Below are positions 61,101 to 63,924 of a stretch of 64,000 nucleotides of DNA, piece by piece. The stretch spans positions 1 through 64,000 of the forward strand of contig NZ_JAQNCY010000017.1 in the NCBI RefSeq assembly GCF_028368855.1, given 5' to 3'. Position numbers and translations under genes: made by a program. The DNA comes from Leisingera sp. SS27. GTDB taxonomy: Bacteria; Pseudomonadota; Alphaproteobacteria; Rhodobacterales; Rhodobacteraceae. Each line of letters begins with the position of its first letter. Position 1 is the first letter of the stretch. The notes beneath the pieces were generated by a model, which saw only the letters and a list, made by a program, of their open reading frames with translations, was not told where the DNA came from and searched no databases.

Positions 61101-61125
61101 CATTCCGTCCCGAAAACAGCATCAG

Positions 61126-61149
61126 CGGCCCCCATCCGGGGGCCGTTTT
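61126..61149 (+). terminator. Intrinsic terminator of thrS
   Basis: CGGCCCCC pairs with GGGGGCCG around ATCC and is followed by TTTT, 25 bases after the thrS stop. Confidence 0.92.
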
Positions 61150-61200: not shown

Positions 61201-61232
61201 TGTCTCACATACGCTGACGCAGACGTGAGACA
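61201..61232. promoter_or_regulatory. Inverted repeat upstream of the bufferin operon
   Basis: TGTCTCAC (61201-61208) and GTGAGACA (61225-61232) form perfect 8-bp arms 16 bases apart, about 90 bases before bufA. It is the only strong symmetric site in the gap after the thrS terminator and may bind the operon's regulator. Confidence 0.5.
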
Positions 61233-61321
61233 CGGCCTCGTGACTTAAATTCCTGAAAACCTCGGGTTAGTGTTTTCCTGTCAACACGACACCGCACGTT
61301 AAACCGAAAGGAATTCACGAG

Positions 61322-61627
61322 ATGTCGACCACCGCAAAATCCCTGGCCGTTGCCAGCGCCGTTGCCGCCGCTCTGACCGCAGCTTCGACCATCCCCGCTG
61401 CTGCTGCCACCAAGGAAAAATGCTACGGCGTTTCGCTGGCAGGCCAGAACGACTGCGCCGCCGGCCCCGGCACCACCTGCGCAGGCACCTCGACCACCGA
61501 CTACCAGGGCAACGCCTGGACTCTGGTTGACGCAGGCACCTGCGAAGGCATGGAACTGCCGGCAATGGCAGACGGCACTGAGCGCAAGGGCTCGCTGGAG
61601 CCGCTGGAGCGCGACCTGCCGGCATAA
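61322..61627 (+). CDS. bufA: Bufferin-type RiPP precursor (DUF2282)
   Basis: The 101-residue protein has a Sec signal peptide (about residues 1-29, alanine-rich, cleavage near AAAA-TKEK). The mature part carries four cysteines (Cys34, 45, 53 and 74) in [24 protein letters not shown] and AGTCEGM. This matches DUF2282/BufA1 precursors, whose cysteines are oxidised by an MNIO enzyme so the peptide can bind copper in the periplasm. An AAAGGA site precedes the ATG. A terminator-like hairpin follows and would leave this gene more abundant than those downstream. Confidence 0.88.
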
Positions 61628-61643
61628 GACCGGCTTGATTTCC

Positions 61644-61673
61644 GGGGCGGGAGTGTCAATTCCCGCCCCTTTT
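61644..61673 (+). terminator. Hairpin with T-tract between bufA and bufB
   Basis: GGGGCGGGA (61644-61652) pairs perfectly with TCCCGCCCC (61661-61669) and is followed by TTTT. This is a full intrinsic-terminator pattern inside the operon, likely a partial terminator. Confidence 0.8.
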
Positions 61674-61696
61674 GCACCCGGACTACAGGATACGCC

Positions 61697-62551
61697 ATGC
61701 TTGACTCTGCTGCACGTGACAGGCTGCCCGCCGCCCCCGGGGTCGGATACAAGCCGCAGCATTTCGCCCAGATCACCGCCGATCCGGGCAGCGTCAAATG
61801 GCTGGAAATCCACGCCGAGAACTACATGGGCGACGGCGGACGTCCAATTGCACAGCTGCGCCATCTGTCTGAAAAATTCGCAATGTCGGTGCATGGCGTC
61901 GGCCTGTCGATCGGCGGCGAAGGTCCTCTGGATACGGATCACCTTGCCCGGCTCAAGCATCTGGTGGGCTGGCTGAACCCTGCCAGCTTCTCTGAACATC
62001 TGGCCTGGTCCACCCACGACAGTCATTTCTACAACGACCTGCTGCCGCTGCCGTACACGGACACCAGCCTGCAGCGGATCTGCGATCACATCAACGAAGT
62101 GCAGGACACCATCGGCCGCCGGATGCTGCTGGAAAACCCCTCCAGCTACCTCGCCTTCGCCGAGAGCACCTGGTCCGAGCCTGAGTTCCTGGCCGAAATC
62201 TCCCGCCGCACCGGCTGCGGGCTGCTGCTGGACGTGAACAACGTCTTTGTCTCCGCCACCAACCTCGACTTCTCGCCGCAGGGCTACATCGACGCTTTCC
62301 CGCTGGACAAGGTCGGCGAGATCCACCTTGGCGGCCACGACGAGGATGAGGACGACCACGGCCGCCCCTTGCTGATCGACAGCCACGGGCGCGAGGTGGT
62401 GGACCCGGTCTGGGCGCTCTTGGATTACACGCTGGCAAAATCCGGCCCCAAGCCGGTGCTGATCGAATGGGACAACGACGTGCCGGACTGGCCGGTGCTG
62501 GAGGCAGAGGCCGCCCGCGCCGCAACCGCGCTGGAGCGCGTCCCGGCATGA
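61697..62551 (+). CDS. bufB: MNIO (DUF692) enzyme, bufferin maturase
   Basis: MNIO enzymes use two or three irons and O2 to modify cysteines of a precursor peptide. The 284-residue product is a TIM-barrel protein with candidate iron ligands: E37, H39 and E41 in LEIHAENY, H66 in HGVGLSIGG, E100-H101 in SEHLAWS, E146 in LLENPSSYL, D179 in LLLDVNN, H210 and H214 in EIHLGGHDED, and E258 in VLIEWDN. The fit with the family is clear. It follows bufA by 69 bases and overlaps the BufC ATG by 4 bases. Confidence 0.9.
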   Translation: MLDSAARDRLPAAPGVGYKPQHFAQITADPGSVKWLEIHAENYMGDGGRPIAQLRHLSEKFAMSVHGVGLSIGGEGPLDTDHLARLKHLVGWLNPASFSEHLAWSTHDSHFYNDLLPLPYTDTSLQRICDHINEVQDTIGRRMLLENPSSYLAFAESTWSEPEFLAEISRRTGCGLLLDVNNVFVSATNLDFSPQGYIDAFPLDKVGEIHLGGHDEDEDDHGRPLLIDSHGREVVDPVWALLDYTLAKSGPKPVLIEWDNDVPDWPVLEAEAARAATALERVPA

Positions 62552-63303
62552 GCGTCAGCCAGACAGAGTTCACCCGCGCCATGATGGATGCGGGCCAGCC
62601 GGTGCCGGACGGTCTGATCGACCATCAGGACCAGCCCGCCGGGCGCCGTTTCAGTGTCTACCGAAACAATGTCGCCGTCTCCCTGACAGAGGCCATGCAC
62701 AGTGCATTTCCGGTGATTGCCAAGCTTCTGGGCAAACAGAACATGGATGGTCTGGCAGGCATCTACCTGCGCCAGCATCCACCCTCGTCACCGCTGATGA
62801 TGTTCTACGGCGAACACTTCCCCGCCTTCCTGGAAGGCATGGAGCAGCTCCAGCATCTGGGTTACCTCGGCGATGAGGCCCGACTGGAGCTGGCCCTGCG
62901 CCGCGCCTACCACGCTGCCGATGCCGCGCCAATTACGCCTGACGCGCTTGGCGCGCTGACGCCGGATCAGTTGATGAACACACGGCTGACGCTGGCGCCC
63001 GCAGTGCAGGTCATCTGTTCACCTTGGCCCATCCACGCCATCTGGCGCTTCAACACCAAAGACGGCGCGTCCAAGCCCGAGGCCCGGGCCGAGGATGTGC
63101 TGGTCACCCGCCCGGAATTCGACCCCATTCCCCAGATTCTGCCGCCCGGCGGTGCCATCTGGATCCGCGCCCTGATGCAGGGCGCCACCATCGGCGAAGC
63201 GCTGGAACAGGCCGCCGCCGCAGACGAAACTTTCGACCTGGGTGCCACGCTGGCCCTGCTGTTGCAGGGCGGCGCGATCACCGGATTGGACAGCAAAGGG
63301 TAA
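62548..63303 (+). CDS. bufC: BufC-type partner protein (DUF2063)
   Basis: The 251-residue protein has an N-terminal DUF2063 (HvfC/BufC) domain. RRFSVYRNNVAVSLTEAMHS lies near 33-52, followed by FPVIAKLLGKQNMDGLAGIY and the helix-rich core up to about 95; a second domain follows. In related operons it is thought to help the MNIO enzyme recognise the precursor. Its ATG overlaps the bufB stop (ATGA), so the two are translationally coupled. Confidence 0.87.
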   Translation: MSVSQTEFTRAMMDAGQPVPDGLIDHQDQPAGRRFSVYRNNVAVSLTEAMHSAFPVIAKLLGKQNMDGLAGIYLRQHPPSSPLMMFYGEHFPAFLEGMEQLQHLGYLGDEARLELALRRAYHAADAAPITPDALGALTPDQLMNTRLTLAPAVQVICSPWPIHAIWRFNTKDGASKPEARAEDVLVTRPEFDPIPQILPPGGAIWIRALMQGATIGEALEQAAAADETFDLGATLALLLQGGAITGLDSKG

Positions 63304-63307
63304 ATCC

Positions 63308-63871
63308 ATGCACGCACTTGTCTCCATTCACGACGCCGTCTTCCGCCAGGTGGAAAGGGCCGGCAACTGGCTGCTGCCTCTGGCCGCACGCTTTGTCTTT
63401 GCCTCCACCCTGCTTCTCTACTTCTGGAACTCCGGCCTGACCAAGCTGGGCGATGGCATTCTCGGCCTGTTCAGCCCCTCGATCGGCGCCTACAGCCAGA
63501 TCTTCCCGAAACAGCTGGAGGCGGTGGGCTATGACGTCTCCCAGTTCGGGCTGTTCCAGACACTGGTGGTTCTGGCCGGCACCTACGCCGAGTTCATCCT
63601 GCCGCTGCTGATCGTGATCGGCCTGTTGACCCGTCTCGCCTCGCTGGGCATGATCGGCTTTGTCATCGTGCAATCGCTGACCGACATCTACGGCCACGGT
63701 GCGACAGATGACAAAACCCTTGGCGCGCTGTTTGACCGCTTCCCCGACGCGGTGATCCTGGACCAGCGGCTGTTCTGGGTTTTCCTTCTGGCGGTTCTGG
63801 TGGTCAAAGGCGCAGGCGCGCTCTCCGTGGACGCCCTGCTGCGCAACCGGATGGAACCGGCCATCGCCTGA
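63308..63871 (+). CDS. DoxX family membrane protein
   Basis: The 187-residue protein has four hydrophobic helices (near 25-45, 75-105, 110-130 and 155-175) with LLPLAARFVFASTLLLYFWN at its start and FILPLLIVIGLLTRLASLGM in the middle, typical of DoxX proteins. DoxX genes often close bufferin-type operons, perhaps for electron or redox balance at the membrane; the function is not known. It starts 4 bases after bufC, at the ATG at 63308. Confidence 0.86.
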   Translation: MHALVSIHDAVFRQVERAGNWLLPLAARFVFASTLLLYFWNSGLTKLGDGILGLFSPSIGAYSQIFPKQLEAVGYDVSQFGLFQTLVVLAGTYAEFILPLLIVIGLLTRLASLGMIGFVIVQSLTDIYGHGATDDKTLGALFDRFPDAVILDQRLFWVFLLAVLVVKGAGALSVDALLRNRMEPAIA

Positions 63872-63891: not shown

Positions 63892-63924
63892 AAAAGGCGC
63901 CCTGCCCGGCAGCGGCGCCTTTTT
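63892..63924. terminator. Terminator of the bufferin operon
   Basis: AAAAGGCGCC (63892-63901) pairs with GGCGCCTTTT (63914-63923), with an A-run on the left and T5 on the right. It works for the bufferin operon and, in reverse, for the convergent gene at the window end. Confidence 0.88.

Follow-up and report, generated by a model that had tools for sequence, protein, structure and literature searches.

The core of a bufferin locus has been described as genes for a precursor, an MNIO-family enzyme, a DUF2063 protein and a DoxX protein, with the Buf1 type defined by a DUF2282 precursor carrying four cysteines, the central of which are modified (thiooxazole) while a disulphide links the first and last (PMC12452194). 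In the same source the Buf1 peptide of Caulobacter is reported to chelate copper and to enhance growth in copper excess, and DoxX genes are described as frequent in bufferin clusters, with a DoxX from elsewhere protecting against oxidative/sulphur stress. The Caulobacter operon CC3254-3257 is reported to depend on sigma F (PMC3511200) and to be copper-induced, the sigF mutant growing poorly in copper (PMC8224329). In Phaeobacter, the clusters for ribosomally synthesised and post-translationally modified peptides of 18 P. inhibens strains were described as one family built on DUF692 enzymes (PMC11595833). Against this background, a stretch of 64,000 nt from Leisingera sp. SS27 (NZ_JAQNCY010000017.1; the window) was analysed, in which four adjacent genes lying within positions 61322-63871 were compared with the described systems (Table 1).

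The four genes, bufA, bufB, bufC and doxX, very probably constitute a Buf1-type bufferin operon directing the synthesis of a copper-buffering modified peptide. The published Buf1 cluster agrees with these genes in content and order, in the family of the precursor, in the subfamily of the MNIO enzyme and in the fold of the partner protein, and this supports the interpretation; observed here were the order of the genes, the families of their products, the subfamily of BufB, the predicted fold of BufC and the conservation of the cysteines and of the locus within the genus. A bufferin-type operon had been proposed in a first-pass annotation made from the DNA alone, and this proposal was upheld by the match in content, order and families and by a BufB score above the maturase cut-off. 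Direct reading of the open reading frames likewise confirmed the DUF2282-MNIO-DUF2063-DoxX arrangement and the overlap of bufB and bufC, in which the ATGA at 62548-62551 is common to the bufC start and the bufB stop; doxX begins after a gap of 4 nt 3' of bufC. The operon is thus an ordinary, standard member of the bufferin systems already described, to which the present analysis adds a conserved upstream box and a hairpin following bufA.

By analogy with the published Buf1 work and from family membership, BufA would be made with a Sec signal peptide, and a cytoplasmic complex of BufB and BufC would oxidise the central residues Cys45 and Cys53 to 5-thiooxazoles. After export of the modified peptide to the periplasm, a disulphide would form between Cys34 and Cys74 and the thiooxazoles would bind excess copper, with DoxX predicted to serve as an accessory membrane protein.

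The BufA precursor matched the Pfam family PF10048 (DUF2282) with 85.5 bits against a cut-off of 22.4, and was the single DUF2282 match in the whole genome, with no second gene of this family found. Its N-terminus, judged by eye, is hydrophobic and Ala-rich over residues ~8-29 ahead of TKEKC, and the AlphaFold model places a helix of low confidence at residues 4-22; residues of about 1-29 are a probable Sec signal peptide. The translation contains exactly four cysteines, at positions 34, 45, 53 and 74, as first annotated. The further proposal that these residues form one core held only in so far as the four cysteines are present, since in the published account it is the central cysteines that are modified and the outer two that form a disulphide (PMC12452194). 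Modification of all four cysteines, beyond the central two, is very improbable. In its favour, all four were retained in 80/80 of the related loci examined (exactly four in 77, five in 3), along with the residues flanking them, so that conservation offers no means of telling the central pair from the outer one. Against it stands the pattern reported for Buf1, together with a weak hint from the alignment: an Ala directly follows the central cysteines in 79/80 and 80/80 loci but neither of the outer cysteines in the window BufA.

BufB matched the Pfam MNIO family MbnB_TglH_ChrH with 340.2 bits (cut-off 25) and exceeded the equivalog cut-off of the NCBIfam model MNIO_BufB (NF050167; 372.2 bits, cut-off 310), while scoring 229.7 bits on the HvfB model against a cut-off of 360. 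Its phmmer matches with structures were 3bww (DUF692; 1.4e-45), 8hci_D (DUF692, TglHI complex; 1.2e-18) and MbnB 7tcr (2.3e-09), and bufB was the sole MNIO match in the genome, with no second MNIO gene found. BufC matched PF09836 (DUF2063) over residues 5-95 with 82.2 bits (cut-off 27.2). A sequence search of BufC against the PDB returned nothing relevant. Its AlphaFold model, built from the window sequence and 38 of 79 relatives, had a mean predicted local distance difference test (pLDDT) score of 92.9, and a Foldseek search of the PDB with this model at E <= 0.001 gave three matches only, 8hci_A and 8hi7_A (TglHI complex) and 3dee (NGO1945), with modest TM-scores of 0.47-0.59. Chain A of 8hci and 8hi7 was taken to be TglI, because TglH is the other chain (304 residues). 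Both TglI and NGO1945 are named as MNIO partners, the latter consisting of DUF2063 plus an RRE, and the usual length given for PME-type 1 partners, 250-260 aa, fits the 251 aa of BufC (PMC12452194). On the predicted structure, BufC is a PME-type 1 MNIO partner with a DUF2063 and an RRE-type domain. DoxX matched PF07681 with 31.6 bits (cut-off 23.6).

Several observations weigh against the assignment. BufB was the only product to pass an NCBIfam cut-off, the matches of BufA, BufC and DoxX all lying under theirs: BufC scored 45.3 against 142 for HvfC and DoxX 27.5 against 80 for HvfX, and BufA fell below every precursor cut-off, reaching 19.5 against 60 on the BufA2 model (NF050166, Cu_RiPP_BufA2) and matching none of the other NCBIfam precursor models. 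The AlphaFold model of BufA (window sequence plus 35 relatives) was weak, with a pLDDT of 52.8 from which the Cys34-Cys74 pairing was not readable, and no sequence relatives of BufA were present in the PDB at E <= 1. As regards the sigma F control described for Caulobacter, NrsF (PF06532) was not found in the Leisingera sp. SS27 genome or anywhere in the genus (0/21 genomes), in a search limited to NrsF and not extended to the sigma factor, and the Caulobacter sigma F promoter GTAACC-N16-CGAA was absent at <=2 mismatches from the interval between thrS, the upstream neighbour, and bufA. The same pattern occurred at 35 sites in the window, 29.7 being expected by chance. The chemistry of the product and its copper binding are predictions from its family. 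Finally, in Cupriavidus metallidurans CH34 the homologous cluster is reported to have no effect on copper resistance, perhaps through masking by other determinants (PMC8224329).

The last of these points also bears on whether the same peptide chemistry might serve mainly a purpose other than copper buffering, be it another metal (silver, gold, mercury or cadmium) or oxidative/sulphur stress, to which DoxX would be a clue given its frequency in bufferin clusters and the protective role of a DoxX elsewhere. The C. metallidurans cluster is reported to be induced by gold and silver as well as copper (PMC8224329), and the Caulobacter sigma F genes, CC3254-3257 included, respond to chromate and cadmium too (PMC3511200, PMC8224329). 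Such a role is nevertheless unlikely in view of the copper chelation and growth benefit described for Caulobacter Buf1, and of the severe growth loss in copper upon sigF inactivation, with chromate and cadmium sensitivity remaining similar (PMC8224329). A copper-buffering Buf1 operon accordingly remained the preferred interpretation.

Conservation was assessed in two collections: the best 80 of at least 415 confirmed relatives in named genomes, representing the closest part of the family and mostly Rhodobacteraceae, and a set of 61 genomes, that of Leisingera sp. SS27 included, of which 21 belonged to the same genus and 16 to other genera within the family. Among the loci kept, the nearest were those of Leisingera strains with a BufA identical to that of the window. 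The order bufA-bufB-bufC was found in 79/80 loci, the exception (L055) being interrupted by a contig end, and was followed by doxX in all loci except L055 and three from Paracoccus (76/80); recurrence of the same four-gene order in so many related loci argues that the arrangement is not due to chance. A thrS match lay within 700 nt upstream in 70/80 loci. Profile matches to DUF2282 were obtained in 43/61 genomes, comprising 21/21 of the genus and 13/16 of the other genera of the family.

A number of individual loci departed from this pattern. The DoxX of Leisingera sp. ANG-Vp (L062:6986-7519) showed 48-54% identity to its counterparts at seven further loci from the genus, compared with 81-90% for BufB, and its nearest relative (90% identical) was that of Roseobacter sp. 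SK209-2-6 (L041), which from these identities looks like the replacement of a single gene inside the operon. Two bufA matches in tandem preceded bufB in Shimia sagamensis (L094:5001-5732). The three Paracoccus loci (L088, L107 and L111) carried bufABC with no doxX match, thrS match or upstream box, and neighbouring open reading frames in L088 had, by eye, the appearance of CtaG-type and CcdA/DsbD-type proteins. A record titled Nocardioides marinus (L037), a title that looks mislabelled, contained a bufA and a bufB 95% and 85% identical to those of the window.

In the window, thrS runs to 61100, and a terminator-like hairpin comes after it. As this hairpin stands between thrS and bufA, the buf genes probably form a transcription unit of their own, separate from thrS. 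Beyond doxX, a GGCGCC inverted repeat followed by a run of T was read directly from the sequence and is a probable operon terminator; it was not listed by the terminator scan, which had a loop limit of 8. Two Rfam matches in the operon region were both under the gathering score and were treated as chance.

Table 1. Features of the bufferin locus in the window of Leisingera sp. SS27
Feature	Position	Strand	Description or basis
Terminator-like hairpin after thrS	61124..61149	+	scan site 61124-61147, 10 pairs
Upstream box TCACA-N4-CTGACG-N4-CGTGAGACACGGCCTCGTGACTTAA (candidate operator/promoter element)	61205..61248	+	alignment of 25 upstream regions
bufA	61322..61627	+	101 aa, DUF2282 (Buf1) bufferin precursor
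Hairpin then TTTT, bufA-bufB gap	61644..61673	+	11-pair stem
bufB	61697..62551	+	284 aa, MNIO-family bufferin maturase
bufC	62548..63303	+	251 aa, DUF2063 MNIO partner (PME-type 1)
doxX	63308..63871	+	187 aa, DoxX-family membrane protein, operon's last gene
GGCGCC inverted repeat then TTTTT, 3' of doxX	about 63896..63924	+	read from sequence

A second hairpin lies in the 69-nt gap between bufA and bufB (61628-61696). Folding of this gap gave -29.4 kcal/mol (z -2.69), a value equalled or bettered by 2/200 shuffles, and the terminator scan did not list the hairpin. Under a strict rule requiring a perfect stem and a T-rich tail, a hairpin was found in the same gap in 37/79 loci and was lacking in 42/79, compared with 50/3950 simple shuffles; the stems were often of different sequence among loci. 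The hairpin is possibly a leaky terminator or a stabiliser of the mRNA 3' end, either of which would result in more bufA than bufBC message.

When the regions upstream of bufA (~200 nt each) from a selection of 25 loci were aligned, a block emerged, positioned 108 nt upstream of bufA in the window, that was better kept than its surroundings. This box is a tandem of TNAC-N6-GTGA followed by CAC-N6-GTGA. Of its 28 fixed positions, 17 or more were matched in 73/80 loci, as against 0/80 for the reversed core and 24/1600 shuffles, although the core was derived from 25 of the same 80 loci, which are therefore not independent. Among the 61 genomes, the long form of the pattern at <=2 mismatches gave 27 matches in 25 genomes, while its reverse gave 4; all but two of the 27 (25/27) had a DUF2282 match no more than 300 nt downstream, with a single such site in each genome, and the box was present with zero mismatches in 21/21 genomes of the genus. 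A looser form at <=1 mismatch was found within 300 nt upstream in 25/36 loci where bufA was located, set against a weak control of 25/840 random stretches of the same loci, which may include the box itself.

Within the genome of Leisingera sp. SS27, the long pattern at <=3 mismatches identified two sites, that of the operon (0 mismatches) and one other (3 mismatches), the reversed pattern giving 1. A shorter pattern at <=2 mismatches gave 94 sites compared with 47 for its reverse, an excess without explanation; inspection of the contexts of 5/94 of these, and of the weak long-pattern site, produced no convincing other target. The exact single-box pattern occurred at 5 sites, compared with 4 for the reversed control, and the four sites outside the operon were unpersuasive. 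The box is a probable operator or promoter element of the operon, and we treat it as a candidate. None of the titles and abstract openings listed in a literature search described it, which does not prove that it is missing from print. A scan for sigma-70 promoters gave no match upstream of or near bufA, which, taken with the missing NrsF, might suggest that the operon is decayed or silent. This is scarcely credible given that all four reading frames are open, that the four cysteines are kept throughout the 80 loci and that the box shows no mismatch in any of the 21 genomes of the genus.

The box partly resembles the Pseudomonas aeruginosa CopR consensus, CTGACAn5GTAAT (PMC11195947), its first copy agreeing by hand count at 8/11 specified bases and its second at 5/11; TGACA half-sites are also given in PMC12428095. 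The likeness is no more than a resemblance. The protein encoded at C29:168857-169510, the closest of 38 matches to the cztR/silR/copR family in the genome and the one examined, scored 251.6 bits, under the cut-off of 279.2, and was not accepted as a regulator acting on the box. Its gene sits between open reading frames that appear by eye to encode a DegP-type protease-like protein and a histidine kinase-like protein, and the surrounding 12 kb contained one exact relaxed single-box site (TGACRN5GTNA), within the protease reading frame, with none in the gap before the regulator even when one mismatch was allowed.

NrsF was present in 7/61 genomes. In five of them (G026, G030, G036, G040 and G055) it was no more than 1 kb away from a DUF2282 match, and all five lacked the box at <=2 mismatches; of the remaining two, G046 had NrsF and DUF2282 on different contigs with the box absent, and G050 had NrsF with no DUF2282 match. 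Several genomes with DUF2282 had neither NrsF nor the box (for example G027, G028, G035, G037 and G045). As the genomes with adjacent NrsF lack the box, the two look like alternatives in this set, the numbers being small. Taken together, it may be that the bufferin operon of this part of the Rhodobacteraceae has left SigF-NrsF control, that it is turned on instead by a dedicated metal-sensing activator, perhaps a response regulator of the CopR/CusR type, binding a tandem box (TNAC-N6-GTGA-NN-CAC-N6-GTGA-N-T) essentially unique to the operon in the genome, and that the bufA hairpin sets an excess of precursor over the modifying enzymes. This combined scheme is put forward tentatively, and we regard it as possible yet rather doubtful. 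The operon itself is one more ordinary and well-conserved representative of a large family already known. In this genus, which has no NrsF, the short, testable candidate operator in front of the operon might point the way to a copper regulator of these marine bacteria, and the regulatory box is the part of the locus most worth further attention.

Among the closest systems described is the Buf1 operon CC3254-CC3257 (CCNA_03363-03366) of Caulobacter vibrioides (crescentus), with which the window shares all four families and their order (PMC3511200). The two differ in their surroundings: in Caulobacter, sigF (CC3253) and the gene for its negative regulator (CC3252) are adjacent and the promoter is GTAACC-N16-CGAA (PMC3511200), whereas the Leisingera genome has no NrsF and carries a different conserved box. 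Buf2 systems (BufA2, NF050166) are reported to use the same kind of enzyme and partner in a similar proposed role, with 6 or 12 cysteines in the precursor (PMC12452194), compared with four in the window BufA, which falls short of the BufA2 cut-off as given above. The EGKCG captophorins (oxazolin, gonophorin and fontiphorin) are likewise MNIO-made 5-thiooxazole peptides (PMC13097082) and have a signal peptide, as is probable for the window BufA, and a PME-type 1 partner (PMC12452194), but their EGKCG motif is absent from the window BufA, and BufB passes the BufB cut-off and not that of HvfB. Also close are the thrS-linked bufABC-doxX loci of other Rhodobacteraceae (Leisingera, Phaeobacter, Ruegeria, Roseovarius and others), which, in a comparison covering sequence identity and the non-coding stretches, stood apart in the divergent DoxX of one strain of the genus, and whose genes are the same as those of the window.

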